A DNA stretch of 64,000 nucleotides, from assembly GCA_021787395.1 (NCBI GenBank), contig JAJYLZ010000002.1:95842-159841 (forward strand), written 5' to 3'. Each line of letters begins with the position of its first letter. Within the stretch, counting starts at the first letter, position 1. Below the pieces are notes generated by a model that saw nothing but the letters and a program-made list of their open reading frames with translations, did no database searches and was not told where the DNA came from. Position numbers and translations under genes: made by a program. Of the stretch, positions 6,024 through 41,583 are shown piece by piece. Source of the DNA: Chloroflexota bacterium. GTDB lineage: Bacteria > Chloroflexota > Limnocylindria > Limnocylindrales > CSP1-4.

Positions 6024-6049
6024 TGAGGCCAGCGTGAACGTCACCTGAG
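6024..6049 (-). promoter_or_regulatory. class A 11-bp direct repeat (site A1) upstream of htpX-psp operon
   Basis: Minus strand CTCAggtgacgTTCAcgctggcCTCA; copies at 6046, 6035, 6024; about 56 bp from the htpX start. Confidence 0.65.
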
Positions 6050-6176
6050 ACTGGCGGACGTCGGCTGAACGGGGCGAGCGGCAATCGCTTCCACCCGTCT
6101 CCCTGTAGCCGCCCAGATTGCCACGGTGGTCCGACGCGAGAGATACAAGCACCACACCCTCCGGCCCGGGTGAGTT

Positions 6177-6202
6177 CTCAGCCGCGACTCACCGGATCCT
6201 CG
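6177..6202 (+). promoter_or_regulatory. class A 11-bp direct repeat (site A2)
   Basis: CTCAgccgcgaCTCAccggatcCTCG; ends 62 bp before ATG at 6264. Confidence 0.65.
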
Positions 6203-6263
6203 ACTGCCCCTAACAAGTCGTCCTCATGTTGAACGGCAACTCGACGGTGACAGGAGGTTCCGA

Positions 6264-6440
6264 ATGGCCCACGACCACGACCGCACACCTGGCACGCCAC
6301 TCGAAACGAGCGCCGCCCCCGGAAGGGCCAACGGAGCTCACACGGGGAGCGACCACTCCATCTGGTGGATGGTCGCCTGCTGCGCGCCGATGGTTGTGCT
6401 CGTTCTGTTACTCCTTTTCGGGTTCCTGGGAACTCGGTGA
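6264..6440 (+). CDS. 58-aa His-rich single-TM small protein (not in ORF track)
   Basis: ATG preceded by aggagg; MAHDHDRTPGTPLETSAAPGRANGAHTGSDHSIWWMVACCAPMVVLVLLLLFGFLGTR. Confidence 0.65.
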   Translation: MAHDHDRTPGTPLETSAAPGRANGAHTGSDHSIWWMVACCAPMVVLVLLLLFGFLGTR

Positions 6441-6528
6441 GGCGACCCCGGAAGGGGTGAGCCTCCTCCACGTGCATCCCTGGGCGAACACCGGTGACCG
6501 GCGGCAGACGGACCACAAGCTCAAGCGT

Positions 6529-6885
6529 TCAACCGGTGGCGAAGAGGCGATAGACAACGGCGGCAAGAGTCGCGAAGCCGGCGAACAACAACAGATCACG
6601 CCGTCGGCCGGGAGCCTGGCCGCCGAATGAACGCGCAAGGGGAAGAACGAGAACAGCGACCGCAGCGTAGAAGAAGTGCATCCCATCGCGCGGCGATGAT
6701 CCGGCCGCGAGCATCGTGATGCCGCTCACCGAGGCCAGCACGATGATCGCCACGACCGCGGCGTGGAGTCGCTCAGTCGCCAACCCCGCGAATCGTCGCG
6801 TGAGGAGCGGCGCGGCTGACCAAGCGAGGCCGACCGCGACCGCGACAGCGACGAGATACGCCAACAGGTGGTGGATGTTGTCCAC
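6529..6885 (-). CDS. four-TM membrane protein of unknown function
   Basis: MDNIHHLLAYLVAVAVAVGLAWSAAPLLTRRF, hydrophobic. Confidence 0.6.
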   Translation of the reverse strand: MDNIHHLLAYLVAVAVAVGLAWSAAPLLTRRFAGLATERLHAAVVAIIVLASVSGITMLAAGSSPRDGMHFFYAAVAVLVLPLARSFGGQAPGRRRDLLLFAGFATLAAVVYRLFATG

Positions 6886-6959
6886 GCACAGTTCCTCCTC
6901 GCGTCGACGGCTGTCCGAGGTGATCGTCGCTTGGGCTCACAGGTAATCTTCAGCGGGCT

Positions 6960-6985
6960 CCCATTCGGCTCTCACCTCGCACTCA
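6960..6985 (+). promoter_or_regulatory. class A 11-bp direct repeat (site A3)
   Basis: CCCAttcggctCTCAcctcgcaCTCA; upstream of the cytochrome b gene. Confidence 0.55.
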
Positions 6986-7060
6986 TTTCGCAAGCGCGAA
7001 ACTGGCGGACCTCCGGGATCGATCCGGGTCGGCCGCTCCGCTGTGAACGGGAGAATGGAC

Positions 7061-8164
7061 ATGAGTTCAGGCACGGCTATTGAGGACGTGCACGACGGTC
7101 GCGCCAGCGGACGGCTCTGGCGGATCTGGGCGGCCGTCGACGAGCGACTCGGCCTGAGCGGCCTCGCGTATCCCGTGCCGAAACACGCGAATGGCATCCC
7201 GTACATCCTTGGCGGCATCTCGTTCTTTGGCTTCCTGGTGCTCGCCGCCACCGGCGTGTGGCTGGCGCAGTTCTATCACTCGACGCCGGAAGGGGCCCGC
7301 GAGAGCGTCGCGTACATCATGAACGTCGCCCCGCTCGGCGACGTCGCCCGGGGCATCCATTTCTGGACTGCCAACCTGGTCATGGCGACCATCCTGCTGC
7401 ACATGGGCCGCGTGTTTGTGACGGGCTCCTACAAGCGCCCGCGCGAGGTGAACTGGCTGATCGGCCTCGGTCTCCTGTCGATCACCATTGGCCTGATCTT
7501 CACGGGTACCGTCCTGAAGTGGGATCAGGAAGGCTTCGAGGCCCTCGGTCACAACGTCGAGATCGGCGAGCTGATCGGAGCCTTCGGGTTCTGGTTCTCG
7601 CCAACGTTCACGACCAGCCTGCCGATCGTCGGACGGCTGTACATCGCCCACGTGGTCATCCTGCCCGCGCTCGGCACGTTCCTCCTCATCGCCCACTTCC
7701 TGCTCGTCAAGCGTCACGGGATCTCGTCGCGGCCCTCCGATTTCGATGCGGCGGTCGACGGAGGCCCGGCGGCCTCGAAGGGCGGCTCGACGTTCGCCGC
7801 ACACCTGGTCAGGATGGTCGGCTTCGGGCTTGTCATCCTGGCGGTCGCCACGGTCCTGTCGCTCGTCATCCGGACACCACTCGGTGGGCCGCCCGACCCG
7901 AGCATCGAAGTTTCCAAGCCTTGGTGGATGTTCCTGCCCTTCTACCCGTTCGAGGACTGGTTCGGATTGCCGGCGCTCATCTGGGCGCCAGGTCTCCTGA
8001 TCGCCGCTCTGGCCCTCGTGCCGTTCATTGATCGAAACCCGTATCGCTCGCCCAGCCGACGCCGCGCCCTCATCATCATCGGCGCGATCGTGGTCATCGT
8101 CCTGGTGGCCTTGGTTGGGTACGCCCTGGTCGAGCCCGTCAAGAGCCACGTCGGAGCGATGTGA
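7061..8164 (+). CDS. cytochrome b/b6-family membrane protein
   Basis: GISFFGFLVLAATGVWLAQFYHSTPEGARESVAYI...HFWTANLVMATILLHMGRVF; ATG choice at 7061 with upstream ggaga (7043 GTG also possible). Confidence 0.85.
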   Translation: MSSGTAIEDVHDGRASGRLWRIWAAVDERLGLSGLAYPVPKHANGIPYILGGISFFGFLVLAATGVWLAQFYHSTPEGARESVAYIMNVAPLGDVARGIHFWTANLVMATILLHMGRVFVTGSYKRPREVNWLIGLGLLSITIGLIFTGTVLKWDQEGFEALGHNVEIGELIGAFGFWFSPTFTTSLPIVGRLYIAHVVILPALGTFLLIAHFLLVKRHGISSRPSDFDAAVDGGPAASKGGSTFAAHLVRMVGFGLVILAVATVLSLVIRTPLGGPPDPSIEVSKPWWMFLPFYPFEDWFGLPALIWAPGLLIAALALVPFIDRNPYRSPSRRRALIIIGAIVVIVLVALVGYALVEPVKSHVGAM

Positions 8165-8165
8165 C

Positions 8166-8405
8166 GTGGTGCCCCTGCTGGTCCGTCTTGGCCTCCTCAC
8201 GCTGGGCTTGGGGATTCTTGAGATCGGGCTGACCAACATGCTCGGCCAAGGGCTGGAGCCGGTCTCTGCGCTGGAGCTCCTCATCGGTTCGCTGCTCGTC
8301 GTGGCTGGCACTGCCGCGATGATTGGGCCGCTGCTTTCGGCCCAGCACTCCCCGACTGACGCTCCGATTACTGACGCTCCGATAGGTGGACCCGATCATG
8401 ACTAG
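8166..8405 (+). CDS. small membrane protein
   Basis: GTG start just after the cytochrome b stop; VVPLLVRLGLLTLGLGILEIGLTNMLGQ. Confidence 0.6.
   Translation: MVPLLVRLGLLTLGLGILEIGLTNMLGQGLEPVSALELLIGSLLVVAGTAAMIGPLLSAQHSPTDAPITDAPIGGPDHD
8355..8384 (+). repeat. 15-bp tandem duplication ACTGACGCTCCGATT/A x2
   Basis: Encodes TDAPITDAPI at the C-terminus of the 8166 ORF. Confidence 0.8.
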
Positions 8406-8907
8406 ACGACTCGTCGGCTTTCCGGTGGCTGCGCTTTTGGCGCTGGCGTTGGCTCCGTCGGCCTGGGCCCACAACATCACGACCGTGACGATCACGCCGA
8501 ACCCGGTCGCGGCCGGCGACAAGGTCACGCTGAGCGTGAGCGGCGTCGAGCCCAACTCGCAGCGCGCCATCGTGCTCATCGGGCAGGGCATCGTCGTCCA
8601 GTTCCCCACCGTCCAAACGGACGCGTCTGGGTCCTTCACGAGCGAGGTCACGATCCCGTCACGGCTCCCCGGAGGAACCTACCGGTTCGAGGCGATCGGT
8701 GACGAGACGCTCACCGGCGAGGTTGACGTGATGGCCGCGGCGGGCGGTATCGCCGCCCAGGCTGCGCCAGCGCAGGCGGTGCCCGACGCACGCACTCGGT
8801 CGACGATCGAAACGGTCCTGATCGTGATGGCCGCCGGCATCGCCCTGCTGGCTGGGCTCGCGCTGATCCTCGGTCCCGAACGGTTCGGCGGCGCCGGCGA
8901 GGCCTGA
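8398..8907 (+). CDS. secreted/membrane-anchored Ig-like protein, paralog of 35231..35770
   Basis: Signal peptide, ITPNPVAAGDKVTLSVSGVEPNSQRAIVLIGQGIVVQF...GGTYRFEAIGDETLTGEV, C-terminal TM. Confidence 0.7.
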   Translation: MTRRLVGFPVAALLALALAPSAWAHNITTVTITPNPVAAGDKVTLSVSGVEPNSQRAIVLIGQGIVVQFPTVQTDASGSFTSEVTIPSRLPGGTYRFEAIGDETLTGEVDVMAAAGGIAAQAAPAQAVPDARTRSTIETVLIVMAAGIALLAGLALILGPERFGGAGEA

Positions 8908-9266
8908 GCCGAGGCCGAGGGCAGAGTGGCCCGATGAGTCTGTGCCCTCTGCCTCGTCCAGTGTCCCCCGGCCGAGACCGACATCGGGTCCGGCACCTGC
9001 GGCGGGTCCGAGGCACTTGTGGGCCGCAACGTCTCGGAGCGCTTGCGCGGGACGGAAGGCTGGTAGCGTCGGCCCTGACTCGATGCTGAGACTGCGCGGG
9101 GCGTGGCGAACCGCAGCCAGGGCCGCGCGGGCCGGTTCGACCCGGCCGAGGACCTCGTGGGACCGCGGCGCGACCCCGCCACGATCCAGCATGACGGGCG
9201 TAGGCGCCGCCGCCCGCTTCGCAAGCGCGCGGTATGCGAGGCAACCCAGTATCCCCTGGCGGACAT

Positions 9267-9292
9267 CTCAGCCGCGACTCATTCGGATCTCA
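9267..9292 (+). promoter_or_regulatory. class A 11-bp direct repeat (site A4)
   Basis: CTCAgccgcgaCTCAttcggatCTCA, three perfect copies. Confidence 0.7.
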
Positions 9293-9357
9293 GCCGTCGT
9301 CTGGATCCTTCGGCTGCGCTTGTGTGGCGGCCGGGATCGGCCGCGGGCGCTCGAAAG

Positions 9358-10005
9358 GTGACCGTGTCCGACTTCGGTGGCGGGCTCTGGGTGATCGTCG
9401 TCCTGGACTCCGCGCTTCTCATCGGCTTTGCCGCAACGCTGTTTCGTCCCCAGACACGCCGCGACTGGCGGGTGATGGGCTCGTTCTCCGCGTTTGTCGT
9501 GGCGCTCTTTGCGGAGATGTATGGGTTCCCGTTGACCATCTACGTCCTCTCCGGACTGCTGGGTGCTGCCTTCCCGCAGCTCGCCGCCACGCACGCGGGA
9601 GGCCACCTGCTCAACGACCTGATCGGCTGGACCGGCGACCCGCACGTGAGCCCATTCCACCTCGTGAGCTACATCCTCATGGGCGCCGCGTTCTTCCTCC
9701 TCGCCCGATCCTGGCCGGTGCTCTGGCGTGCGCAACGTGCAGGAGAGCTGGCGGTGACGGGACCCTACGCCCATGTCCGCCACCCGCAGTACGTCGCCTT
9801 CCTCCTGCTGATGGTGGGGCTGCTCGTCCAGTGGCCCACGCTCGTCACGCTGGTGATGTTCCCGGTCCTCGCCGTCGCGTACCGTCGGCTGGCACGCACC
9901 GAGGAGCGCGAGATGCGCGCCCAGTTCGGGGCGAAGTACGACGCCTACGCTGCCACTACCCCGGGATTTGTCCCGCGGCGATCCAAGCGCAGCACCGCGT
10001 CGTGA
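9358..10005 (+). CDS. isoprenylcysteine carboxyl methyltransferase / PEMT-like membrane methyltransferase
   Basis: GPYAHVRHPQYVAFLLLMVGLLVQWPTLVTL...EEREMRAQFGAKYDAYAATTPGFVPR. Confidence 0.85.
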   Translation: MTVSDFGGGLWVIVVLDSALLIGFAATLFRPQTRRDWRVMGSFSAFVVALFAEMYGFPLTIYVLSGLLGAAFPQLAATHAGGHLLNDLIGWTGDPHVSPFHLVSYILMGAAFFLLARSWPVLWRAQRAGELAVTGPYAHVRHPQYVAFLLLMVGLLVQWPTLVTLVMFPVLAVAYRRLARTEEREMRAQFGAKYDAYAATTPGFVPRRSKRSTAS

Positions 10006-10220
10006 CTCCGCCGCTGGGATCGGAGCGGGGCGTGCCGTGGTGGGCCGGCGTCGCTGTGACACCAGATCGGCACTGGGCCGTCCCTTGCCCCGCAACCGAG
10101 CGCGCCGATACCGTTCGTCCATGACCTCGCCCGTCCGACCCATGGGGATGATGTGTATGCGCCGGCGGCCCCGCCGCGCTGAGGACGGGGCTCTGGGTGC
10201 CGCGACCGGCTGACGCCGGA

Positions 10221-10243
10221 CGGGACCTCGGGCCGAGGTCCCG
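10221..10243. other. perfect 10-bp stem palindrome, 3-nt loop
   Basis: CGGGACCTCG-ggc-CGAGGTCCCG. Confidence 0.7.
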
Positions 10244-10371
10244 GGAACGCAGCCCACGCTGCGGCCCATCGCTCCTCAGGACGAACGCGACGGCCAGCCG
10301 CCGGAACCACGCCCCGGCCGGGACCTCCCACTCGTACGCCATTCACGACGCACCCCCTGGGAGATCATGTC

Positions 10372-10890
10372 ATGACCGAGTTCGCCTTCGCCCCGCTCGT
10401 GTCCGCCACTCGCGAGGCCCTAGCGGCCGCCCCCCACGGCGCCGCCGTCCACACATTCCGCGTCGCTAGTCGGCAGACGTCCGGCCTCCGCAGCGACGCG
10501 CGCATCCGCTCGTTCGAGCTCGCGGTGGACGAGCCGCCGCTGCTCGGCGGCAGCGACACGGCGCCCAACCCCGTCGAGTACGCCCTGCTGGCCCTCGCCG
10601 CCTGCCAGGAGATCACGTACCGGCTTCACGCCGACCACCTGGGCATCCCGCTCGACGGGGTGGCGGTGTCGCTCGAGGGCGACGTCGACCTGCGCGGGTT
10701 CTTCGCCGTGGACAGCGCAGTACGCCCCGGCTTCCGCGAGATCCGCGGCTCTGTCCGCCTCGACAGCCCGGCACCGAGGTCCGAGCTCGAGCGGCTGAAA
10801 GCCCACGTGGATGCCCACTGCCCGGTGCTCGACCTGCTGCGCAGCGAGACCCCGGTGGCCATCGCCCTGGAGGCGGCCGTACCCGCCTGA
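10372..10890 (+). CDS. OsmC/Ohr family protein
   Basis: NPVEYALLALAACQEITYRLHADHLGIPLDGVAVSLEGDVDLRGFF. Confidence 0.9.
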   Translation: MTEFAFAPLVSATREALAAAPHGAAVHTFRVASRQTSGLRSDARIRSFELAVDEPPLLGGSDTAPNPVEYALLALAACQEITYRLHADHLGIPLDGVAVSLEGDVDLRGFFAVDSAVRPGFREIRGSVRLDSPAPRSELERLKAHVDAHCPVLDLLRSETPVAIALEAAVPA

Positions 10891-10987
10891 CGGGAAGGGG
10901 GAGTCTGGCAGCGGCCGCGCGTCGGCCGCAGCCAGACAACTAACGGCGCGGGGGCGACTCCGCGAACCCATGCCCTCCGGCACTCCT

Positions 10988-11013
10988 CTCAGCACACGTT
11001 CAGCCCGGGCTCA
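10988..11013 (+). promoter_or_regulatory. class A 11-bp direct repeat (site A5)
   Basis: CTCAgcacacgTTCAgcccgggCTCA upstream of the multicopper oxidase. Confidence 0.65.
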
Positions 11014-11064
11014 TCCGCACGGGCCACCCTTCCCGCGAGCGGCAGCAAGCGCTGCCGCCTGCAG

Positions 11065-12249
11065 TTGGAGCCCCGCATGTCGTTGCGCGTCCCTGGAGTT
11101 GTCAGCGTGGCCGCGGTCGTCGCGGCGATTGTGGCGAGTGCGATCGGCGGCTACGCCCTGGCGGGGGCCAGGGCGGGCAGCGCCGGCGTCGCGACCGGCA
11201 CCGATGCAGGCCTGGCCCTCGCCAGCCGCACGTCGCTCGAGCAGCTGCTCGCCACCAAGCCCATCACGCCGACTGGCAGGACGAAGACGTTCGACCTCGC
11301 GATCGGCGAGACCACCTGGGAGCTTGTGCCCGGCGTCACGACGCAGGCTGTCGCCGTAAACCGCACGGTGCCTGGCCCGACCATCCGCGTGACGGAGGGC
11401 GACGCGGTCGTGGTCAACGTGCGCAACCAACTCACGGAGCCGACTTCGATCCACTGGCACGGCGTCCACGTCCCCAACGACCAGGATGGCGTCTCCGGCG
11501 TGACGCAGGATCCGATCCCGGCGGGCGGCTCCTACACCTACCGCTTCACGGCATCGCACGCCGGCACCTTCATGTACCACGCTCACGGCCCGAAGAGCCG
11601 TGAGCAGATTGACCGCGGGCTCTATGCGCCCCTAATCATCGACCCAGCCGGGCCGGACCAGATCGCCGCAGATGTGGAGCAGGTGCTCGCGATCGGCAAC
11701 TGGATGGTCGGCAGCGACATGGCGACGATGGGCGCCATGAGCATGGACTACAACTACTTCACCATGAACGGCAAGTCGTACCCGGCGACGACCCCGATCG
11801 CGGTGCGCCAGGGACAGCTGGTGCGGCTGCGGATCGTCAACCCCAGCCAGACCCTCCACCCGATGCACCTCCACGGGTTGGACATGGCCGTTGTGGCCAA
11901 GGACGGCGAGGCCCTACCGCAGCCCCAGCGACTCAACACGCTCGACGTCGCCCCAGGCGACACGTACGACGTGGTCATCCTCGCCTCGGCCCCCGGCACG
12001 TGGCTGTTCCACTGCCACGACCTCCACCACGTGACCAACAACGGCGTGGAGCCCGGCGGGCTGATCGTGCCCATCGTCGTGACGGCGTCCGACGGGCCTT
12101 CGCCATCGCCGTCCGCATCGGCGATCCCGGCTGCGTCGAGTGCCGCGCCCTCAGCGTCGCCCAGCCTTTCTTCGGATCCGACGGCGCCTGCGTCGACGAC
12201 CCCCGAGCACACGGCGGTGCCGGGCATGACCGCCATGCCGGGGATGTAG
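11065..12249 (+). CDS. multicopper oxidase
   Basis: IHWHGVHVPNDQDGVSGVTQ, TFMYHAHGP, LHPMHLHG, WLFHCHDLHH copper motifs; Met-rich C-terminus TAVPGMTAMPGM. Confidence 0.93.
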   Translation: MEPRMSLRVPGVVSVAAVVAAIVASAIGGYALAGARAGSAGVATGTDAGLALASRTSLEQLLATKPITPTGRTKTFDLAIGETTWELVPGVTTQAVAVNRTVPGPTIRVTEGDAVVVNVRNQLTEPTSIHWHGVHVPNDQDGVSGVTQDPIPAGGSYTYRFTASHAGTFMYHAHGPKSREQIDRGLYAPLIIDPAGPDQIAADVEQVLAIGNWMVGSDMATMGAMSMDYNYFTMNGKSYPATTPIAVRQGQLVRLRIVNPSQTLHPMHLHGLDMAVVAKDGEALPQPQRLNTLDVAPGDTYDVVILASAPGTWLFHCHDLHHVTNNGVEPGGLIVPIVVTASDGPSPSPSASAIPAASSAAPSASPSLSSDPTAPASTTPEHTAVPGMTAMPGM

Positions 12250-12347
12250 GGCTGGCCTCGCTCGCTTCGCGAGCCGGCGCCACGCCCCCACCTGATCGGC
12301 CCGTCGGCTCGGGGGCGCGGCAATCACCGCGCGGGATGGGCGTTCGA

Positions 12348-13373: not shown

Positions 13374-13999
13374 GGCCCGGCGATCGTGCGGAGCTTGGCG
13401 TCGATGTCGGCCTGCGAGAGCACCCCGACCTGGTGGGCCCGGATCATCCCCGTGCGGTCTATGAAGAAGGTCTCGGGGATGCCGGTGAGGCCATAGTCGA
13501 TCGCGGCGGTCCCCTGCGGGTCGAGCAGGGTGGCGTAAGGCACGCCGAACTCGTCCACGAACCTCTGAGCGTTCTCTGCAGTGTCCTGATACAGGATGCC
13601 GACCACGGCCAAACCCTGGGGCGCCCTGCGCGCCAGCTGCACCAGCAACGGCGCCTCCTCGCGGCACGGAGGGCACCAGGAAGCCCAGAAGTTCACGATC
13701 ACGGGGCGCCCTGCATAGTTCCCGAGGCCGAGGCGGCGGCCGTCGAGAGTCTGGAGATCGAAGGAGGCGGCCGGGCGATCGACGCCCGGACCCCGGTCCA
13801 TTCCCGATGGCGGGGTGACCCGGAAGGTGACGGTCACTTCAACGAGGATCGCGACGGCAATGGCGCCGAGGATCCAGACAAGTCGGCGCCGGGTACGTGG
13901 CCGAGACGGCGGTGCCGGGTCCCACGCCTCGGGATCGGCCGGACCAGTCGAGGCCGCCTGCTCAGCCACCAGCGCGCACCGCGGCAGCCTCCGCCGCAA
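13370..13999 (-). CDS. TlpA/CcmG-like thioredoxin
   Basis: [26 protein letters not shown]. Confidence 0.9.
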
Positions 14000-18500: not shown

Positions 18501-18520
18501 TGGTACCTTGACTGGCGAAT

Positions 18521-19849: not shown

Positions 19850-19875
19850 CTCATCGTACGCTCAGGTGGCGTTCA
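19850..19875 (+). promoter_or_regulatory. class A 11-bp direct repeat (site A6) upstream of YHS/complex I-like operon
   Basis: CTCAtcgtacgCTCAggtggcgTTCA; ends 62 bp before ATG 19937. Confidence 0.65.
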
Positions 19876-19936
19876 GGCACGGTGCCTAACGTCGACTCCA
19901 GCCCGGGCGCGTGCCCGAGCGCCACCGGAGACAGCG

Positions 19937-28707: not shown

Positions 28708-28733
28708 CTCAGCCGAGGCTCATCCCGCCCTCA
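28708..28733 (+). promoter_or_regulatory. class A 11-bp direct repeat (site A7)
   Basis: CTCAgccgaggCTCAtcccgccCTCA, three perfect copies. Confidence 0.7.
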
Positions 28734-28817
28734 CCTGTGGCCTCAAGACTGACCCTGTCGGCCGGAGCCAAGCGGGGACACGAACTGGTGGCCCGAGCTC
28801 CGAGGAGCCGACAGGAG

Positions 28818-29650: not shown

Positions 29651-29806
29651 TGTCGTCCTAAGGTTCGGGCGGCACAGTGCCCATGCGCGGGCACCCGCCC
29701 GGCCGCAGGTCGCCAGTGGCGGCGGCAACGTACGATGGCCGCACCAGCGACGCGCCGCGCGGACCGGGGCCCAAGCGCACGAACCACAGGAGGCCGTCCC
29801 GACGCC

Positions 29807-30490
29807 ATGGCCGAACCCACGCGCATCCTCGTCGTCGACGACGACCCGAAGATAAGGACCGTCGTCCGGCGGGGCCTCGCCTACGAGGGGTACCGGGTGG
29901 TGGAGGCTGCCTCGGGCGAGGAGGGCCTCGACAAGGCCCGGGAGCACCTGCCCCAGCTGGTCATCCTCGACGTCATGATGCCGGGGATCGACGGTCTCGA
30001 GGTGACGCGGCGCCTCCGCGCCGGGGGGGACGAGGTCGCCATCCTGATGCTGACCGCTCGCGACGAGGTCAAGGACCGCGTTGAGGGCCTGGAGACCGGC
30101 GCCGACGACTACCTGGTCAAGCCGTTCAACTTCGAGGAGCTCCTGGCCCGCGTCCACGCCCTGCTGCGGCGGAGGACGTCGCCGGCGGGCGAGGTCCTCC
30201 GCTTCGCCGACCTGGAGTTCGACGTCGACGCGCGGGAGGCCCGCCGCGGCGACCGCCGGATCGAGCTGACCACGACCGAGTACAACCTGCTGCTCCTGTT
30301 CATGCGCCACCCGCGCAAGGTGCTGACCCGCGACGTGATCATGGACCACGTCTGGTCCTACGACTTCGAGGGCGAGTCGAACGTGCTCGAGGTCTACATC
30401 CGCTACCTGCGCGGCAAGCTCGAGGCCGACGGCGAGCCCAGGCTCCTGCACACGGTCCGGGGCGCGGGCTACGTCCTCAAGGACGGGTGA
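29807..30490 (+). CDS. OmpR-family response regulator (RR1)
   Basis: [65 protein letters not shown], winged-helix C-terminus. Confidence 0.95.
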
Positions 30491-31893
30491 GCCGCCTGCC
30501 GCGGCTCTCGATCCGCGTCCGGCTCGCGCTGCTTTACACGGGCCTGCTGGCCGCCGCGCTGGCCGCCTTCGGGGGCGGCATGTACGTCGTCCTGAGCCGG
30601 GAGCTCGAGTCCTCGTTCGACGCCTCGCTCGTCGCAAACGCGGAGCACGCCGCCGGGGCGATCGCGCAGGACCTCAACGCTGCCGGGGGCCTGACGCCGT
30701 CGCCGAGACTCGTCTCGCAGCTCGCGTCGACCGGGGGGCGGATCCTCGTGCTCGACCCCTCGGGCCGCGAGATCGCCGACTCGGCGCCCCCCGCGGAGCC
30801 GGCCCTGCCCGTGACCCCCGATGACATTGCTGCCGCTGACCACAACGGCCACTCCATCCATGAGCATCCGGTCCCCGGGGACGTCCTGCGGATCACGGTC
30901 CAGACGGTCCGCGGGCCTGACGCGAGCACGCTCGGGTACGTCGTGTGGGCCGACAGCACGCGCCCGCTCCGCTCGCTGCTCGACACGGTCCGCCTCGCCC
31001 TCTTGCTCGGGGGTCTGGCCGTGACGGCGCTCGCCCTGATCGGCGGGCTCTTCCTGGCCCGCCGGGCTCTCGCGCCGGTCGCCGACATGACCGACACGGC
31101 CCGCGCGATCGCCCTGTCCGGCGACTTCGGGGCCCGCGTCGAGGGGCCTGGGACGGCCGACGAGGTCGGCGAGCTCGCGGCGGCGTTCAACGAGATGCTG
31201 GCCGCCCTCGAGTCGAGCCACCTGGCCCTCCAGCGATTCCTCGGCGACGCCTCGCACCAGCTCCGCACCCCGCTCACGGTGATCCGCGCCAACCTCGACC
31301 TCGCGACGCGGCCCGACTTCGACGAGACCGAGCGGTCGGCCATCCTCGACGACGCCCGCGACGAGGCCGAGCGGATGGGCCGCCTCATCGCTGACCTCCT
31401 CTCGCTGGCCCGGGCGGAGTCCGGGGCCCGCCTCAGCTTCCAGCCCGTCGAGCTCGACGCGCTGCTCGTGGACAGTGTCCGCCGGCATCGGCAGGCGGCG
31501 CCCCACGTGCGGATGTCGGTGGCTGCCGTGGAGCCCGTGGTGGTCGAGGGCGATGCCGACCGCCTGCGCGAGCTGTTCGGCATCGTGCTGGACAACGCGG
31601 CCCGCTACACCCCGCCGGGCGGGAGCGTCACGGCCCGCCTCACGACCCGCGACGGGGCGGCGGTGGTCACCGTCGACGACACGGGGATCGGCGTGGACGC
31701 GGAGGATGCTGACCATCTGTTCGAGCGCCTGTACCGCGGACGCCGCGCGCGGCAGATCCGCCCGTCCGGGACGGGCCTCGGCCTCGCGATCGCGCGCTGG
31801 ATCGCCGACGCCCACGGCGCGACGATCTCGCTGTCGCCGCGACCGGCCGGGGGCACCCGCGCGGAGATCGTCCTGCCCGCGCGAACGAGCTGA
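30487..31893 (+). CDS. sensor histidine kinase (HK1)
   Basis: [23 protein letters not shown]-box, [18 protein letters not shown]-box, HAMP region. Confidence 0.95.
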
Positions 31894-31935: not shown

Positions 31936-31961
31936 CTCACGAGAGGCTCACCTGGCTCTCA
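31936..31961 (+). promoter_or_regulatory. class A 11-bp direct repeat (site A9)
   Basis: CTCAcgagaggCTCAcctggctCTCA, three perfect copies. Confidence 0.7.
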
Positions 31962-31985
31962 GCCTGGCGGGCGACCATCGGGTCC

Positions 31986-32219: not shown

Positions 32220-32241
32220 GCGCAGCATTGGGAGCGAGCAC

Positions 32242-32472: not shown

Positions 32473-32505
32473 CAGCGCTTCGGCACGGCCGGGAGGCGTA
32501 CCGAG

Positions 32506-33699: not shown

Positions 33700-33720
33700 C
33701 CCGGTCCTGAGAACCTCGGT

Positions 33721-33993
33721 TCAGAGGCACCACTCGGTGTACGGCGTCGAGCTCGACGCCGGTGCCGGCTCGTGGTTCGCCTCGCCCGCGCAGCAGATCG
33801 CCGTGAGCCCGTCGGGGGCGTGGTCGTGGTCGAGCACGAAGCGCGAGAAGCACCCCGCGCAGCGGAACCGCAGGGTTCGGCCGTGGAACAGCGCCGTGAC
33901 GCCCGACCCGGCCTCCACAGGTGAGCCGCAGGTGGCACAGGCCGCCGCGGGCTGGTCGTCGGAGTCGATGACGGCGAGTTCGCTCAGTTGCAT
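33721..33993 (-). CDS. small Cys-rich treble-clef/TRASH-like protein
   Basis: ACATCGSPVEAGSGVTALFHGRTLRFRCAGCFSRFVLDHDHAPDGLTAICCAGEANHEP. Confidence 0.65.
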   Translation of the reverse strand: MQLSELAVIDSDDQPAAACATCGSPVEAGSGVTALFHGRTLRFRCAGCFSRFVLDHDHAPDGLTAICCAGEANHEPAPASSSTPYTEWCL

Positions 33994-34055
33994 GGGAACC
34001 TCTCGATTGCGTCGCACGGGGCATCGCCCCGGGGTTCGAGGGTCGTCCCGCAGGC

Positions 34056-34081
34056 TTAGGCAGCCATGAGGCGGCGATGAG
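34056..34081 (-). promoter_or_regulatory. class A 11-bp direct repeat (site A12) upstream of 33993 gene
   Basis: Minus strand CTCAtcgccgcCTCAtggctgcCTAA; 62 bp from start codon. Confidence 0.5.
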
Positions 34082-34760: not shown

Positions 34761-34782
34761 GGGAGCCTCGAGGGCCGCAAGT

Positions 34783-34808
34783 CTCAGCATGGACTCATGC
34801 TGCGCTCA
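34783..34808 (+). promoter_or_regulatory. class A 11-bp direct repeat (site A10), no recognizable ORF downstream
   Basis: CTCAgcatggaCTCAtgctgcgCTCA, three perfect copies. Confidence 0.7.
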
Positions 34809-34996
34809 GCGTGCGCGCCGACGCTCACGACAGCCCTTCCCCCCAGGGCGTCAGGTCCCCTGAGCAGTCGTCACGTTGGGCGGCCGGGGCCTGTAGACCC
34901 GGACGTGCCCGGCCTCCCCCCGGGCCGCCGTCCACGCGGCTCCTGCGATGGGCCGCCAAGCGGGCGGGATCCGCCTCGGTGTGGATCCCGCCCGCT
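34809..34996 (+). ncRNA. candidate regulated small RNA (or leader) between site A10 and a terminal hairpin
   Basis: No plausible CDS; ends in AGCGGGCGGGATCC-gcctcggtgt-GGATCCCGCCCGCT. Confidence 0.4.
34959..34996 (+). terminator. 14-bp perfect stem hairpin, 10-nt loop
   Basis: Left arm 34959-34972, right arm 34983-34996. Confidence 0.65.
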
Positions 34997-35042
34997 GACT
35001 ATTCCCCGCCCGCGACGCCCTTGGCGACCGGGCCGCCACTTC

Positions 35043-35079
35043 CTCATGGATCGCTCAGACCGCGCTCATCAGGGATTCA
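35043..35079 (+). promoter_or_regulatory. class A 11-bp direct repeat (site A11), four copies
   Basis: CTCAtggatcgCTCAgaccgcgCTCAtcagggaTTCA. Confidence 0.72.
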
Positions 35080-35144
35080 GCCCCGAGCGGTGAACTCCGG
35101 CATGGGCCACCTAGGGCCGGGCATCGCAACAGGAGACGACAGAC

Positions 35145-35231
35145 ATGGCCAGCCCCGCAGTCGCAGCGCTCATGCGCCGGGGGTTCATGTCGTCCTTCGC
35201 ATGCGGTGCTCGCGGCAAGGAGCAGCGCTGA
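35145..35231 (+). CDS. 28-aa small ORF translationally coupled (TGATG) to the next gene
   Basis: aggagacgacagacATG; MASPAVAALMRRGFMSSFACGARGKEQR*; stop overlaps the ATG at 35231. Confidence 0.4.
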   Translation: MASPAVAALMRRGFMSSFACGARGKEQR

Positions 35232-35770
35232 TGCGCCGCATCCTGGCCGCCGCGGGCGCGCTGGCCGCCCTCGTGATCCCCCTCGGCATCGTCACCGGGT
35301 ACACCGGGAGCGGCCAGGCATCTGTCCAGGTCGAACCCGCGTCAATCGACGCCGGCGCAACCGTCGTCTTCGCCGGCACCGGTCTGCGGCCCGACAGCGA
35401 CCGCGACCTCGTACTCGCCGGGGACGGCATGGTGATCGACTTCGGGGTTATCAAGACCGACGCCACCGGGACGTTCAGCAAAGAGCTCCACATCCCCGGC
35501 CATGTCCCGAACGGGACCTTCGAACTCCGCGCCGTCGGTGATGAGACGCTGACCGTCCCGCTGCAGATCGCAGGCACCGCCGCGGGGGATGGCGGGGCGA
35601 CGAGCGCCGCCCAGGCCGCCGTCGGACGCTCGACGTCCGGGCTCGAGTCGGCCGCCTTCCTCGGGACGATCCTCGCGCTGGCCGTCGCGGGCGGCCTCGT
35701 GGCGTGGAAGGCCGAGCGGCTCAACCGGACGATCCAGGCCTCCCGGACGCTCCGCGAGACATTGAGGTGA
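35231..35770 (+). CDS. secreted/membrane-anchored Ig-like protein, paralog of 8398..8907
   Basis: VEPASIDAGATVVFAGTGLRPDSDRDLVLAGDGMVIDFG...GTFELRAVGDETLTVPL, C-terminal TM. Confidence 0.7.
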   Translation: MRRILAAAGALAALVIPLGIVTGYTGSGQASVQVEPASIDAGATVVFAGTGLRPDSDRDLVLAGDGMVIDFGVIKTDATGTFSKELHIPGHVPNGTFELRAVGDETLTVPLQIAGTAAGDGGATSAAQAAVGRSTSGLESAAFLGTILALAVAGGLVAWKAERLNRTIQASRTLRETLR

Positions 35771-36891
35771 ATGGCGTGCGCGGCGGGACGGGCCCCGGCC
35801 CCGGACACCCGTCGGCCGCCACAACAGGACAGGCGCGCTCGCTGCTGGTTCCGGGAGCGATCGCCTTCGTCCTGATCGCGACCGTCTATATGCCAACCCA
35901 CCCCAGCGGGTCAGCGGGGCAGGCCCTTCTCGGCGCGATCGCGGGCCTGTACGTGGTGGGAATGGCGGTCATCCTGCCCCGCGTTACGCGCGTCCTGATC
36001 CTCGGGGGCCGGCGCGTCGCCGCCGACGCGCCGTTCCTGCGGCCGGGCCTCCTGGCGTCGGGGGCCTCGCCCGCTCGGCGGTTGGTTGCTGTCGCATCCG
36101 GCGCGGTCGTGTCCGGGGCGCTCGCGGTAGCGGCCGCGGCGGCGACCTCCGGCACCGACGTCCGGAGCTACCAGCACGCGATTGGCTCGCTGGCGGTGCT
36201 CGCGAACCTCGGACTCCTGCTCGCCACCATCGTCCCGATGCCCGGACTCGCGGGATGGGAGGCTGTCGAGGCTATCACCGAGGCCAGGTGCTCGAACACC
36301 GACCACCACGCGGCGCACGCGGCGCGGGCGGCCAAGGCGGTGGCCGTCGCCCTCGCCGTCCTGCTCGCCCTGGGCGCGGCCCTGATCGGCGACCCGATGC
36401 TCGCCGCACTGGGGATCCTGGCCGCGGCGACCGTCTGGGCACAGGCGGAGGCAGTCCGACGCATCGACATCGTCGAGCGGTTCTTCGCGAGCCACACGGC
36501 GTCCCAGCTCGCCCACCCCGTGAACGCCGTGCGGCGAGCCGACGAGCAGATCGGCGACCTGACCTCGGATGCTCGGGCCTCGACGTCCCTCGTGGTCGAC
36601 GGCGCCGGGCTCTTCGTGGGCGCCATCGGCCCGCGCCAGATGCGGGCGGCGGCCGCGCGGCCGGCCGCGCGGTGCGGTGACGCGATGGTGCCGGCCAGGA
36701 CGCTCCGGATCGCACAGGCCAACGACGGCGCCGCCGACATCGCCACCGACCTCGAGGTCGCTGGGATCGTGCTGGTCCGCGGCGACCCCAGGTACGGTGC
36801 GGTGGAGGCGGACGATGTGATCGCGCAGATGCGGGCGTGGGCGGACGCCGACGCCCTCGCGACGCGCCAGGCGCACGGCACGGCCGCATGA
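35767..36891 (+). CDS. site-2-protease-like membrane protein without HExxH (putative pseudoprotease)
   Basis: GTG start; ANLGLLLATIVPMPGLAGWEAVEAI aligns by eye with the S2P N...P-L-D-G-G region; no HExxH; soluble C-terminus. Confidence 0.45.
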   Translation: MNGVRGGTGPGPGHPSAATTGQARSLLVPGAIAFVLIATVYMPTHPSGSAGQALLGAIAGLYVVGMAVILPRVTRVLILGGRRVAADAPFLRPGLLASGASPARRLVAVASGAVVSGALAVAAAAATSGTDVRSYQHAIGSLAVLANLGLLLATIVPMPGLAGWEAVEAITEARCSNTDHHAAHAARAAKAVAVALAVLLALGAALIGDPMLAALGILAAATVWAQAEAVRRIDIVERFFASHTASQLAHPVNAVRRADEQIGDLTSDARASTSLVVDGAGLFVGAIGPRQMRAAAARPAARCGDAMVPARTLRIAQANDGAADIATDLEVAGIVLVRGDPRYGAVEADDVIAQMRAWADADALATRQAHGTAA

Positions 36892-37253
36892 ACGTCCCGG
36901 CCGCGCCTTCCCGCAAGCCCCGGCGCTACGAGGCGGCGTCGTCGGCGCTGGCGCACGCGAGCCGTGCCGCCGGCCAGGCCGCTGGCGTGGCCGAGATGGT
37001 CCGCACAGGCCAGCCGCTCAGCGCCATCGTCCAGCAGCTGCTCGCGGCACAGGGTTCGCTCGACGCCCTGCTCGTCCGCCTCGTCCAGCAGGAGGTCGAC
37101 CGCCAGGTCCTGGCGGAGAACATCCACCCGGACGTGCGTGAGCTGCTGGGCCCAGTCCTCCGCAGAAGCCGAGGTCCCTCGCACCGGACCCGTGCGCCCC
37201 GCAACCCCGCGACACCATCCCATTTCGCCCAGTCCGAGGAAGCCCCAAGATGA
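36888..37253 (+). CDS. CsoR/DUF156-like protein lacking metal-ligand cysteines
   Basis: ALAHASRAAGQAAGVAEMVRTGQPLSAIVQQLLAAQGSLDALLVRLVQQEVDRQV. Confidence 0.65.
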   Translation: MNVPAAPSRKPRRYEAASSALAHASRAAGQAAGVAEMVRTGQPLSAIVQQLLAAQGSLDALLVRLVQQEVDRQVLAENIHPDVRELLGPVLRRSRGPSHRTRAPRNPATPSHFAQSEEAPR

Positions 37254-37735
37254 CCAAGCCCAACCGCCCGACCGCCGACCGCCCCCGCCCGCCCATGAAG
37301 GCACGAAATCGCCAGGCTCCCAAGCACCGCGGCCTCCGCACGGTTGTCTTCGGTGCTGTCGCGCTCGTGATCTCGGTCGCCGCACTTGCCTTGGTGGCGA
37401 CGCGCCTCGCGCCCCCCGCGCCCGCAGCGGCCGGCGTCGTCCAGATCCAGGCAAGCATGGGCGGGTTCCAGCCGGCCGCGATGAGTGTGAAGGCAGGCTC
37501 GGCAGTCTCGGTCGAGCTGACCTCGACGGACTCGTCCTTCCACAGCGACGGCGGCGGCTGGCACGAGATGGCGATCGACGAGCTCGGGATCGACTGGAAG
37601 GTCGGGCCCGAGAGCAGCAAGGAGTTCGAGTTCACCGCTCCGTCGACGCCGGGCACCTACACCTGGTTCTGCGGCATCTGCTGCGGCGGCCGGGCGAACC
37701 CGTCGATGCAGGGCAAGCTCACGGTGACGGCATGA
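37250..37735 (+). CDS. membrane-anchored cupredoxin-like protein with CxxCCGG motif
   Basis: TPGTYTWFCGICCGGRANPSMQGKLTV. Confidence 0.75.
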   Translation: MTKPNRPTADRPRPPMKARNRQAPKHRGLRTVVFGAVALVISVAALALVATRLAPPAPAAAGVVQIQASMGGFQPAAMSVKAGSAVSVELTSTDSSFHSDGGGWHEMAIDELGIDWKVGPESSKEFEFTAPSTPGTYTWFCGICCGGRANPSMQGKLTVTA

Positions 37736-38583
37736 CGCGTGCCGCGGCAATCCCGCGGCGGGGCGCCGCAGTCGCGGGGGTTGGCGTCCTGCTGGCGGTG
37801 GCCGCGGCGGCGGTTGCGCTGGCCCAGCCGGCGACCTCGATGGCCGCCCATGACGGCCTGCCGGGCTTGACCGTGCCGGTCATCCTCGGCGCGGGATTCC
37901 TCGACGGCTTCAACCCCTGCGCCTTCGGCGTCCTGATCCTGTTCGCCACCTTCGCGCTTGGTCTGGCGGCACGCGAGTCTGTCGCGTCGGGCAACGGGCA
38001 GGCGACAGCGGCGGCGTCAAGGCGCGTGCTCGGCCTGGGGTCGCTGTTCGTGGCTGGCGTCCTGGTCACCTACTTCCTCCTCGGTCTGGGCATGCTCTCG
38101 GCCATCGTCACGGCGACCAACTTCGGGTCGAGCCACCTGCCGAGCCGCATCGCCGCCCTGATCGCCATCGGGATGGGCATCTGGATGCTGCGCGACGCCC
38201 TGCTGCCTGACGCCCGGCTGCAGCTCGCCGCGCCGCACGCGCTCCACGGCAGGATGCGCTCGTGGGCGCGGACGAGCTCCCCCCTGGCACTGGTGGGCGG
38301 TGGGATACTCATCGGCCTGTGCACCGTCCCGTGCAGCGGCGCTGTGTACCTCTCGGTGGTGGCGCTCCTGGGGGCCGGGGGCAGCGTCGCGGCAGGCCTC
38401 GGCGGGCTGATCCTCTACAACGTCGCCTACATCACGCCGCTGGTCCTGCTCCTGGCGCTGGCCAGCCGCCCGGGGGTCATCCGGACGATCAACCGCTGGC
38501 ACCTCGAGCACGCCGGCGGGACCAAGCTGATGCTCGCCGGCGTCGTCCTCGTCATGGGGTTCGCGATCCTGCTCACCGTCTGA
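37732..38583 (+). CDS. CcdA/DsbD-type transmembrane thiol transporter-like protein
   Basis: GFLDGFNPCAFGVLILFATF ... IGLCTVPCSGAVYLSVVALL. Confidence 0.8.
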   Translation: MTRAAAIPRRGAAVAGVGVLLAVAAAAVALAQPATSMAAHDGLPGLTVPVILGAGFLDGFNPCAFGVLILFATFALGLAARESVASGNGQATAAASRRVLGLGSLFVAGVLVTYFLLGLGMLSAIVTATNFGSSHLPSRIAALIAIGMGIWMLRDALLPDARLQLAAPHALHGRMRSWARTSSPLALVGGGILIGLCTVPCSGAVYLSVVALLGAGGSVAAGLGGLILYNVAYITPLVLLLALASRPGVIRTINRWHLEHAGGTKLMLAGVVLVMGFAILLTV

Positions 38584-38596
38584 CACGGAGGCCGAC

Positions 38597-39967
38597 ATGG
38601 ACCTGGCGCTCATGGGTCGCGTTCTCGCCATGCGCGGCGGGTTGCGCCGGCGGGACCGTTGGGACCGGGCGGAACTGGACGCGCATCGCGAGCGGCGGCT
38701 GCGCGAGCTCCGTCGGTTCGCCGTCGAGCGGTCGCCGTTCTACCGCCGGCTCCACGCCGGGCTCGAGGACGCGCCGCTCGAGGCGCTGCCCACGGTGACC
38801 AAGGCCGAGCTCGCGGCCAGCTTCGACGAGGTCGTCACCGACCGCGGGGTCCGGCTTGCCGACGTGGAGGCCCATCTGCGCTCCATGGCCGGCGATGCCC
38901 GGTTCCGCGGCCGCTACCGCGTCGTGTCGACGTCGGGCACGACCGGGGTGCGGGGCGTCTTCCTCTCTGACGCTGCCGAGTGGGCGGCGGTGGTCGGCTC
39001 GTACAACCGCGCGCAGGAGTGGGCCGGCGTCGCGGCCTCGCCGACGCACCGGATGCGGCTCGCGGTCGTGAGCACGACGACGGCTTGGCACCAGTCGGCG
39101 CGCGTCGGCGCGAGCGTCGCAAACCCGCTCGTGCGCACGCTCCGGGTCAACGCCACCGACCCGGTCGCGGACAGTGTGGCGCGGCTCAACGCCTTCCAGC
39201 CCCAGTCGCTGATCGGCTACGCCTCGATGCACCGCCTGCTCGCCGAGGAGCAGCTGGCGGGCCGGCTGCGCATCTCGCCGACCGCGGCGCTGTCCGCGTC
39301 CGAGGTGCTCACGGATGACACGCGCCGCATCGTCGCGCAGGCCTGGGGCCGGCAGCCGTTCAACGTGTACGCGGCCACCGAGCCCGCGGGCATTGCGTCC
39401 GAATGCGAGCAGCACGACGGCCTCCACCTGTACGAGGACCTCGTGATCACCGAGGTCGTCGACGAGGCGAACCGCCGGGTCTCCGTCGGCACCTTCGGGG
39501 CCAAGATCCTGGTCACGGTGCTGTTCAGCCGAACCCAACCGCTGATCCGCTACGAGATGAGCGACAGCGTCCGGCTGGCGTCCCGCCGATGCCCGTGCGG
39601 CCGCCCCTATGCGCTGCTCGACGCGATCCAGGGCCGCCAGGAGGACATCCTTCAGCTGCCCGGGCGCAACGGGGGGCTGGTCGCCGTCCACCCGCTCGTC
39701 TTCCACGATGCCCTCGACCGCGTGCCCGCCGGCGAGTGGCAGGTCGTCCAGGAGGGCGACGCCCTGCGGCTGCTGGTGGCGGGACCGGGCGCGGGCTTCG
39801 ACGGCGCCGCTGTGATGGCGGAGATCCGTACGGCCATCGAGGCAGTTGGAGCGGTTGCGCCCAACGTGACGTTGAGCGAGGTCCCCGCGATCCCGCGCAC
39901 GGCCGCCGGCAAGGCGCCGCTCGTCCGCGCGGATCCAGGCGTCACGCGCCCTGCGCCGCAGCGGTGA
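38597..39967 (+). CDS. PaaK-like AMP-forming ligase
   Basis: RYRVVSTSGTTGVRGVFLSD ... RYEMSDSVRLASRRCPCGRPYALLDAIQGRQED. Confidence 0.85.
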   Translation: MDLALMGRVLAMRGGLRRRDRWDRAELDAHRERRLRELRRFAVERSPFYRRLHAGLEDAPLEALPTVTKAELAASFDEVVTDRGVRLADVEAHLRSMAGDARFRGRYRVVSTSGTTGVRGVFLSDAAEWAAVVGSYNRAQEWAGVAASPTHRMRLAVVSTTTAWHQSARVGASVANPLVRTLRVNATDPVADSVARLNAFQPQSLIGYASMHRLLAEEQLAGRLRISPTAALSASEVLTDDTRRIVAQAWGRQPFNVYAATEPAGIASECEQHDGLHLYEDLVITEVVDEANRRVSVGTFGAKILVTVLFSRTQPLIRYEMSDSVRLASRRCPCGRPYALLDAIQGRQEDILQLPGRNGGLVAVHPLVFHDALDRVPAGEWQVVQEGDALRLLVAGPGAGFDGAAVMAEIRTAIEAVGAVAPNVTLSEVPAIPRTAAGKAPLVRADPGVTRPAPQR

Positions 39968-40418
39968 TGAGGAGCACGAGCACCCCGAGCCCAGCCTGAG
40001 CGCGGGCTGTCCAGACGAGACTTGCGCCCGGCGCCGACGGGGAAACCTCTCGCCCCGCCCGGACCAGGAAGCCGTCGAGCGCCGAGCCGACGGCGAGCAT
40101 CCCGACCACCACGAGGTGCTTGACCAGGAGCAGCGCCGCCCAGGCGCCCCGCACTTCACCCAGCCCCTGGTACTGCGACGCCGACGTCTGGAGGGAGATG
40201 CCGGTGGCCAGGAAGGCGCCGACCGACGCGAGCAGGAGCGGCAGCGCGCGTCGCTCGATGGCCGCCAGCAGCTGGCCGACCGGGAGGACGACAGCCCGGC
40301 GATCGCCGGGCGCGCGCGTGACGGCCGGGATCACGACGGCCGCGAGCAGCACGTAGTAGCCGACCAGCACGACCGTCGCTAGCAGGTGCCCCCAGAGCAG
40401 CCACGACGCCAGTGACAT
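39942..40418 (-). CDS. CopD-like copper-resistance-domain membrane protein
   Basis: MSLASWLLWGHLLATVVLVGYYVLLAAVVIPAV...LLLVKHLVVVGMLAVG. Confidence 0.65.
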   Translation of the reverse strand: MSLASWLLWGHLLATVVLVGYYVLLAAVVIPAVTRAPGDRRAVVLPVGQLLAAIERRALPLLLASVGAFLATGISLQTSASQYQGLGEVRGAWAALLLVKHLVVVGMLAVGSALDGFLVRAGREVSPSAPGASLVWTARAQAGLGVLVLLITAAAQGA

Positions 40419-40463
40419 CGGGATCCCTCCACGGTTTGGACGCAGAGCTACCGGGCCTACCGA

Positions 40464-41471
40464 TCAGAAGAGCAGGAGGGGGTTGACGAACCGGCCGCCC
40501 ATCTCGATCCGCACGTCCAGGTGCGGCCCCGTCGAATTGCCGGTCGTGCCGACCTCGGCGATCTCCTGGCCGTCGCCGACGCGCTGGCCGACGGACACGA
40601 GCACCCTGCGGCTGTGGTTGTAGGTCGAGATCATGCCGTTCGGGTGGCGCAGGACGACGACGAAGCCGCCCCCGTTGTCCTTCCAGCCGGCCCAGATGAC
40701 GACGCCGGCCGCGACCGCGCGGATGGGGGTGCCGGCCGGAGCGGCGATGTCGATGCCGGGATGGCGGCTCGAGAAGGTCGTGGTGACCTCGCCCCGGACA
40801 GCGAGCGGCCACTGGTGGCCCGACGCCCTCGGAACCACGACTGGCTTCGGGACCCGCGTGGGCGCGGGCTTGGGGGCTGCCTTGGGCCTGGCGGTTGCGG
40901 CCTTGGCGGTGCGGCCGCCCGGCACGAGGACCTTCGATCCGATCCTCACGCTGGCCGGATCCACCGCGGGGTTCCACCGGACGACGGTGGCGAGGGGCAC
41001 GCCGTGCATGACCGCGATGGTCCACAGGCTGTCGCCCGGGCGTACGACGTGCGTGGGTCCCGGGGGCGGCGCGTCGGCTGGGGCCACGGGCGTTGGCGTG
41101 GCCGTCGGCTGCCCAAGCGCCGGCGCGGCGGACGGAATGGCAGTGGGGTCGGGTGTCGCGCCTGCTGAGCCGACCGCAGGGACGACGGCGACGGCGTCGA
41201 CTGTCGGGACGGTCGGGATGCCCAGAACACCAAGGGCCAACGAGGGAGCCGCCGACGTCGGCGCATCCTGGCCCGACGGCGTTGCCTCCACGTCCATCCG
41301 TGGCGCCGCGACGACCTGTCGGAACGCCTCCGGGGGGAGCGCGCTACTCGATGACGGCGCCCGTCCGGCCACCGCGCTCAGCGACCAGATCGCCCCGACA
41401 GCCCCGAGGAGCGCGGCCGCGGCCAGCTGTCGTCGGCGCGCGCGGGCGCGCACGGGGTGTGCCTGTCGCAT
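40464..41471 (-). CDS. LysM + M23 peptidase
   Basis: HVVRPGDSLWTIAVMHGVPLATVVRWNP; SSRHPGIDIAAPAGTPIRAVAAGVVIWAGW...GNSTGPHLDVRIEMGGRFVNP. Confidence 0.93.
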   Translation of the reverse strand: MRQAHPVRARARRRQLAAAALLGAVGAIWSLSAVAGRAPSSSSALPPEAFRQVVAAPRMDVEATPSGQDAPTSAAPSLALGVLGIPTVPTVDAVAVVPAVGSAGATPDPTAIPSAAPALGQPTATPTPVAPADAPPPGPTHVVRPGDSLWTIAVMHGVPLATVVRWNPAVDPASVRIGSKVLVPGGRTAKAATARPKAAPKPAPTRVPKPVVVPRASGHQWPLAVRGEVTTTFSSRHPGIDIAAPAGTPIRAVAAGVVIWAGWKDNGGGFVVVLRHPNGMISTYNHSRRVLVSVGQRVGDGQEIAEVGTTGNSTGPHLDVRIEMGGRFVNPLLLF

Positions 41472-41557
41472 CTACCACCTCGCTGTGTTCGACGCCCACC
41501 GCCGGACACAGTCAACGGACGCTGCGGCTCGGGCCTGCCGATCCTCGCGCCGACTCC

Positions 41558-41583
41558 TGAGCGCAAGGTGAAACAGGGGTGAG
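41558..41583 (-). promoter_or_regulatory. class A 11-bp direct repeat (site A13) upstream of the M23 gene
   Basis: Minus strand CTCAcccctgtTTCAccttgcgCTCA (TGAG 41558, TGAA 41569, TGAG 41580). Confidence 0.62.

Follow-up and report, generated by a model that had tools for sequence, protein, structure and literature searches.

Introduction

Several regulators that act on direct repeats with an 11-bp period, or that are tied to copper, have been described. The PhoP box of Mycobacterium tuberculosis consists of two TCACAGC units with an N4 spacer, and in the crystal structure of PhoP with DNA the residues Asn212, Val213, Glu215, Ser216, Tyr217, and Tyr220 read TCACAGC, with Asn212 and Ser216 sharing a water molecule that is bonded to an adenine (PMC4832192). 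The PHO boxes of PhoB and PhoP are made of 11-nt direct repeat units, activation proceeds through the sigma subunit, and the Streptomyces operators vary in the number of units (PMC4415409). The SARPs of Streptomyces (AfsR) carry a DNA-binding domain of the OmpR type and bind 11-bp direct repeats, with a constant 8 bp between the last repeat and the -10 (PMC10936776). CopRS of Corynebacterium glutamicum is a copper two-component system that is autoregulated and adjoins genes for a copper ATPase and a multicopper oxidase (PMC3140484). Here, a family of CTCA/TTCA tetramers repeated in steps of 11 bp is described in a stretch of 64,000 nucleotides (the window) from a Chloroflexota bacterium (GCA_021787395.1, contig JAJYLZ010000002.1, positions 95,842 to 159,841), together with RR1, a response regulator encoded in the window that very probably acts on these repeats.

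With PhoP of M. tuberculosis the RR1 system shares the protein family, the 11-bp period, and a nearly identical 7-bp repeat. It departs from the PhoP-type repeat in having three units and a T in place of the A at the third base, and the targets of RR1 differ from those of PhoP. On its other strand, the CopRS repeat TGAAGATTTgaTGAAGATTT has the form TTCA-N7-TTCA and is in this respect like the YTCA repeats (Y, C or T) reported here, but CopRS has two units and one genomic binding region, at -266 to -285 upstream of cg3286 (PMC3140484), whereas dozens of sites at a fixed distance from the -10 are found here. The SARPs also differ from the RR1 system, as they have a BTA domain, no kinase, and two protomers on two repeats (PMC10936776); RR1 has a receiver domain, and its 227 aa leave no room for a BTA domain. 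The PHO box, with the repeat CTGTCAT or GTTCACC and the phosphate regulon behind it, is different from the CTCA sites (PMC4415409). By comparison with these systems, the layout is that of class II activators of the PhoB and SARP types, and functionally the system may be closest to CopRS of C. glutamicum and work like it. It is not filed as a CopR/CusR member because RR1 falls below the curated CopR score. Similarity of the recognition helix had also brought up MprA of C. glutamicum and CutR of Streptomyces as regulator types; both were rejected, given that their motifs, TKTTAAGAAM (PMC12113857) and TAWATAAA (PMC12802291), are not CTCA repeats. These two are stress regulators of the OmpR family, to which RR1 also belongs. 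A search of the literature library for a response-regulator motif combining CTCA with an 11-bp period gave no match.

Results and discussion

The repeat family and its promoter layout

All 13 coordinates at which the original prediction had placed CTCA/TTCA repeats with 11-bp steps were borne out on the sequence, and so were its five loci of three pure CTCA units and its four-unit array at 35043-35079. A perfect YTCA-N7-YTCA-N7-YTCA stands at nine loci, namely the sites scored 12/12 in Table 1 and the array at 35043; on the minus strand, 6049 and 41583 are the 5' ends of the sites previously given as 6024 and 41558. The other four loci have one altered base, which turns the first unit into CCCA at 6960 and the third into CTCG at 6177 and into CTAA at both 29636 and 34056. 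The repeats, already judged not to be expected by chance, are indeed no chance effect: the window holds 10 perfect triples, whereas second-order Markov resamples average 0.017, and when up to one mismatch is allowed the numbers are 17 and 0.38. Intergenic YTCA pairs in the window lie 11 bp apart (start to start) in 21 cases and 22 bp apart in 11 cases, with at most four at any other distance, and the coding sequence of the window has no peak at 11 or 22 bp. The whole genome (3.45 Mb) holds 29 perfect triples, and the reversed-pattern control has no match in it. On the 866 kb of motif-bearing contigs, the full 43-base element, which includes the -10 described below, has 146 matches at 13/14 or better with CTCA and 0-2 with each of 11 scrambled tetramers. 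It had been stated that an equal density in coding DNA or randomised sequence, or a lack of conservation at orthologous promoters, would speak against the motif; the density was found not to be equal, and the sites recur before orthologous genes of related genomes. Tandem-array matches on contig C96 and in coding DNA (G003 C89, C77) were left out as unrelated. The array in the own genome (C96:32081-32183) is a local one of CTCAC-rich 11-mers without a -10, and looks like an unrelated tandem repeat.

For the promoter layout, an alignment was made of 69 triple sites of the own genome and its relatives, chosen without using the sequence downstream of the repeats. This set was picked for the triple match, and the conservation within the units therefore follows by construction, which is not the case for the -10, the leaderless starts, the autoregulation, and the co-occurrence. 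Two further bases are fixed downstream, an A (58/69) separated from the last CTCA by 12 bases and a T (63/69) separated from it by 16. This A-N3-T corresponds to the A and T of a predicted -10 hexamer (tAnnnT). With the T taken as -7, the three units span about -49 to -24, and a distinct -35 is lacking. Judged from its sequence, the element is a whole promoter made of the repeats and the -10, and more than an operator. The layout of class II activator promoters, where tandem repeats of 10-11 bp replace the -35 at a fixed distance from the -10, is found across the 69 sites. The element, its spacing, and its orientation come directly from computation, and for 153 of 166 sites the next gene lies on the same strand, with 10 sites inside called genes.

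Among matches selected for two units plus the -10, the unit left over has all four bases right in 77-87% and at least three of them in 93-98%, whereas the background for a perfect unit is 0.3%. In 12% of the sites a fourth perfect unit is added on the upstream side, and in none on the downstream side, from which it follows that the -10 holds one end of the array in place and that extension is upstream. This pattern indicates an operator that needs three units and can have a fourth, upstream, as an option. The start codons of the targets often fall 6-8 bases after the T of the -10, clustered at +1 to +3; the genes were called by a simple codon-usage caller, and some start codons may be off. Because these codons fall where transcription should begin, many targets look leaderless, and about a dozen appear to be so.

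RR1, its kinase, and the distribution of the sites

RR1 is recognised as a response regulator of the OmpR/PhoB family, with a receiver and a C-terminal winged-helix DNA-binding domain. It matches the PhoP, PrrA, and MtrA chains of M. tuberculosis over its full length, as well as many OmpR-family models, and the closest solved structures are those of PhoP and PrrA. The sensor kinase has two membrane helices and a sensor domain of about 130 aa, and it is conserved beside the RR1 orthologs. A site stands no more than 300 bp before the start of RR1 itself in 24 of 28 orthologs (shuffled control, 0.02%); the orthologs L066, L067, and L072 sit behind another gene that has a site about 1.2 kb upstream, and L063 is cut by the end of its contig. 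RR1 is duplicated in the own genome, with a 90%-identical copy on contig C72 (53570-54250) that has its own site and clustered sites around it, and two copies are also present in G003, G057, G114, and G117.

The full element is essentially limited to one family of its class, in which exact matches are abundant; across 70 genomes of the other families of the class it was matched five times, and across 177 genomes the reversed control was matched once. The conservation of the element was computed, and so was its linkage to RR1, the latter across 107 genomes of the family; all genomes are metagenome assemblies. RR1 orthologs (at least 80% identity) are present in 23 of these, and the median number of sites per genome is 9 with RR1 and 0 without it. 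At least four sites are found in 21/23 genomes with RR1 versus 6/84 without (Fisher p = 6.6e-15). The regulon is physically clustered: of the 26 sites that the own genome has when one mismatch is allowed, 25 lie on the contig of the window (C17) and on C72, which together make up 6.9% of the assembly, and a grouping of the sites around an RR1-kinase pair is also seen in many relatives. The co-occurrence in the 107 genomes, the sites before RR1 itself, and a PhoP-like helix that matches a PhoP-like repeat are independent of one another and support the earlier proposal that RR1 is the probable regulator.

Outside the family conservation is patchy, since no clear site was found upstream of the regulators of Ktedonobacterales and others at 55-69% identity. 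The regulators of Paenibacillus pinistramenti (L160) and Thermoactinomyces daqus (L168) are about 50% identical to RR1. Within the 200 bp before the start of each lie four YTCA units at 11 bp, then N12 and ATAAT, which points to promoters of the same geometry in another phylum.

Predicted target genes

The recurring targets, counted as genomes with a site, are RR1 (12), P-type ATPases (11), a secreted leaderless protein with a GGHHR motif (11), YHS proteins (9), multicopper oxidase (7), cupredoxin (7), a leaderless HMA protein (6), an FtsX-like permease (5), an ICMT-like methyltransferase (4), and a DoxX-like protein (4). Two types of P-type ATPase were tested, and both score above the curated copper-ATPase cut-off (TIGR01511). 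A copper-type P-type ATPase of the island has CPD where CPC is usual in the transport motif, a change conserved in the orthologs read, and all 13 genomes that bear its gene also carry RR1 (13/13). The GGHHR family consists of secreted, mostly leaderless proteins of about 160 aa with the conserved motifs DTH, LD..DL, and GGHHR; it has no match in Pfam or NCBIfam, and it is present in 19/107 genomes, 18 of which (18/19) have RR1. The conserved targets suggest a response to copper or another metal, and the simplest reading of these gene sets would be a co-inherited island for metal handling and the envelope that is run by its own two-component system.

Recognition, mechanism, and alternatives

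RR1 retains five of the six residues with which PhoP contacts the bases, and Ser216 is replaced by valine in every ortholog read. The first RR1 unit, TCTCAGC, is one base apart from the PhoP unit TCACAGC, at the third position, and the water-bonded adenine of the PhoP structure is taken to be this third base of TCACAGC. A valine of RR1 facing the methyl group of the thymine is plausible. A homolog with threonine at the position of PhoP 216 (L102) has TTCACAG repeats, while the Firmicutes homologs L160 and L168, with valine, have YTCA repeats; the exception is L104, with leucine and a CACAG repeat.

It is very probable that the sites are activator promoters run by RR1 and its kinase. From the results above we infer the binding of RR1, the activation, the number of RR1 molecules, and the signal as follows. 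Phosphorylated RR1 would bind head to tail at about -49 to -24, with a single molecule on each CTCA unit and all of them on the same face of the DNA. The bound molecules would stand in for the missing -35 and recruit RNA polymerase to the -10 located 12 bases downstream. RR1 would thereby activate its own gene, in a positive feedback, and the physically clustered, co-inherited copper and envelope genes. The signal would most likely be a metal, copper or some other, that is present in the periplasm or envelope.

Several observations weigh against this assignment. Eight genomes without RR1 carry 3-10 sites, and although five of them are less than 80% complete, G013, G083, and G118 are 87-92% complete. 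Two genomes of the family with RR1 hold just 1-2 sites. With respect to copper, several targets in the own genome are not copper genes (the complex I-like operon, HtpX/PspA, and M23), and no obvious metal-binding signature was seen in the alignment of the kinase sensor. The curated models for copper regulators and kinases are not reached either: RR1 scores 239.5 bits against a cut-off of 279.2 for CopR/CusR (TIGR01387), the best match of the kinase is the heavy-metal sensor kinase TIGR01386 at 196.3 against 292.55 bits, and no NCBIfam family is above cut-off for either protein.

From a comparison that covered the RR2-like genes, it is improbable that another activator of the OmpR type binds the sites, be it RR2 (57048) or a SARP-type protein with the same 11-bp geometry. 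RR2-like regulators do lie close to RR1 in many clusters, and the direct repeats of SARPs share the 11-bp period and are set 8 bp from the -10 (PMC10936776), but, unlike in the RR1 orthologs, no CTCA site precedes any RR2-like gene, and the RR2 helix (RTLEVH or HVVDVH) is without the Asn212 of PhoP. The RR2-like regulators, having no such site, therefore probably read a different motif. RR2 and its kinase form a second two-component system in the window (55930-57749), near cupredoxin genes. Slightly less probable still is that RR1 acts as a repressor, or both ways, by blocking RNA polymerase. The repeats overlap the promoter, a place where many regulators repress; nonetheless, there is no conserved -35 to compete for, and class II activation needs just such a fixed gap to the -10 as the 12 bases seen here. 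The triple is most unlikely to be the promoter class of an alternative sigma factor, since, although the -10 is fixed at a fixed distance, three identical units one helical turn apart with an optional fourth (12%) fit tandem proteins, and the linkage to RR1 would be left unexplained.

With activation by RR1 as the preferred reading, a more specific proposal has about an even chance of being right. In this proposal an obligate three-unit operator, occupied by an odd number of head-to-tail response regulators and not a dimer box, replaces the -35 and fixes the -10. It would govern an island for metal handling that is inherited as a set, has a patchy distribution, and holds many leaderless genes, with a specificity of regulator and motif that is one residue and one base away from PhoP. 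The system is of a known kind, probable OmpR/PhoB-type activation, in which the regulon is new and the obligate third unit is a possible new variant. A regulon, its regulator, and the layout of its promoters are thereby outlined in sharp detail for an uncultured Chloroflexota lineage in which no published regulon of this kind was found. The signal-to-noise ratio is high enough for targets to be predicted gene by gene from sequence alone, and likely metal-related roles can be assigned to unnamed genes of the island. The comparison with PhoP of M. tuberculosis offers a clean case of a recognition code, with one contact residue (Ser216 to Val) and one motif base (A to T), and the strict need for three units raises the question of how many regulator molecules act on class II promoters.

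Individual promoters of the window

The sites and genes are collected in Table 1. The targets previously listed for these repeats hold overall; the sites at 6177 and 6960, both without a conserved -10, are weaker calls.

Table 1. Predicted operators and associated genes, in window coordinates unless a contig or locus is given. Fractions are matching bases in three units; genome numbers are genomes with the site.
Feature	Position	Strand	Remarks
Three-unit operator CTCA/TTCA/CTCA, htpX-pspA operon	6024..6049	-	12/12 and A and T of -10; predicted -10 6007-6012
Weak operator CTCA/CTCA/CTCG, divergent to 6049	6177..6202	+	11/12; conserved -7 T absent
Degenerate four-unit array TTCA/CCCA/CTCA/CTCA, before cytochrome b (7061)	6949..6985	+	11/12; no conserved -10
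Operator, ICMT-like methyltransferase gene (9358)	9267..9292	+	12/12; -10 9304-9309; 4 genomes
Operator, multicopper oxidase gene (11077)	10988..11013	+	12/12; -10 11025-11030; 7 genomes
Operator, YHS-domain gene (19937) and complex I-like operon behind	19850..19875	+	12/12; -10 TAACGT 19887-19892; 9 genomes (YHS gene)
Operator, DoxX-like gene (28818)	28708..28733	+	12/12; -10 28745-28750; 4 genomes
Predicted RR1 autoregulatory operator CTCA/CTCA/CTAA	29636..29661	+	11/12; -10 29673-29678
RR1, OmpR/PhoB-family response regulator, proposed regulator of the sites	29807..30490	+	
Cognate sensor histidine kinase	30487..31893	+	Start overlaps RR1 stop codon
Operator, leaderless HMA (CopZ-like) gene	31936..31961	+	12/12; -10 31973-31978; start codon 31986 at +1/+2
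HMA-domain protein, 77 aa	31986..32219	+	PF00403 above cut-off
Operator CTCA/CTCA/CTAA, TRASH/YHS-like metal-binding gene (33721-33993)	34056..34081	-	11/12; -10 34039-34044; conserved in G004
Operator, far upstream promoter toward 35231	34783..34808	+	12/12; -10 34820-34825
Four-unit operator, toward 35231	35043..35079	+	-10 35091-35096
Operator, LysM-M23 peptidase gene (40464-41471)	41558..41583	-	12/12; -10 41541-41546; conserved in G003, G004
CPD-motif ATPase	L038:5587-8064 = own genome C72:65587-68064	-	
GGHHR secreted protein	L033:14445-14936 = own genome C17:74445-74936	-	

The operator of htpX is conserved at the htpX ortholog of G003, and the distance from the site to the start of the HMA gene is the same in G001, G003, and others. 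The DoxX-like gene has no match in Pfam, and its name is that of the original prediction. Behind the operator at 6177 lies an uncalled peptide of 58 aa (6264-6440), WWMVACCAPMVVLVLLLLFG, with a His-rich start and one hydrophobic helix, preceded by a strong ribosome site; a reading of this gene as 121 aa was rejected, as the frame with the good ribosome site is the one of 58 aa.

Upstream of cytochrome b, G003 and G004 have better four-unit arrays than that at 6949. In the array at 35043, the -10 fits the downstream register (35054) only. The cytochrome b promoters of G003 (C69:17719) and G004 (C78:8785) have almost the same sequence as this promoter; cytochrome b is missing from the window at 35043-35770, and the gene that follows it in the relatives now stands directly behind the promoter.

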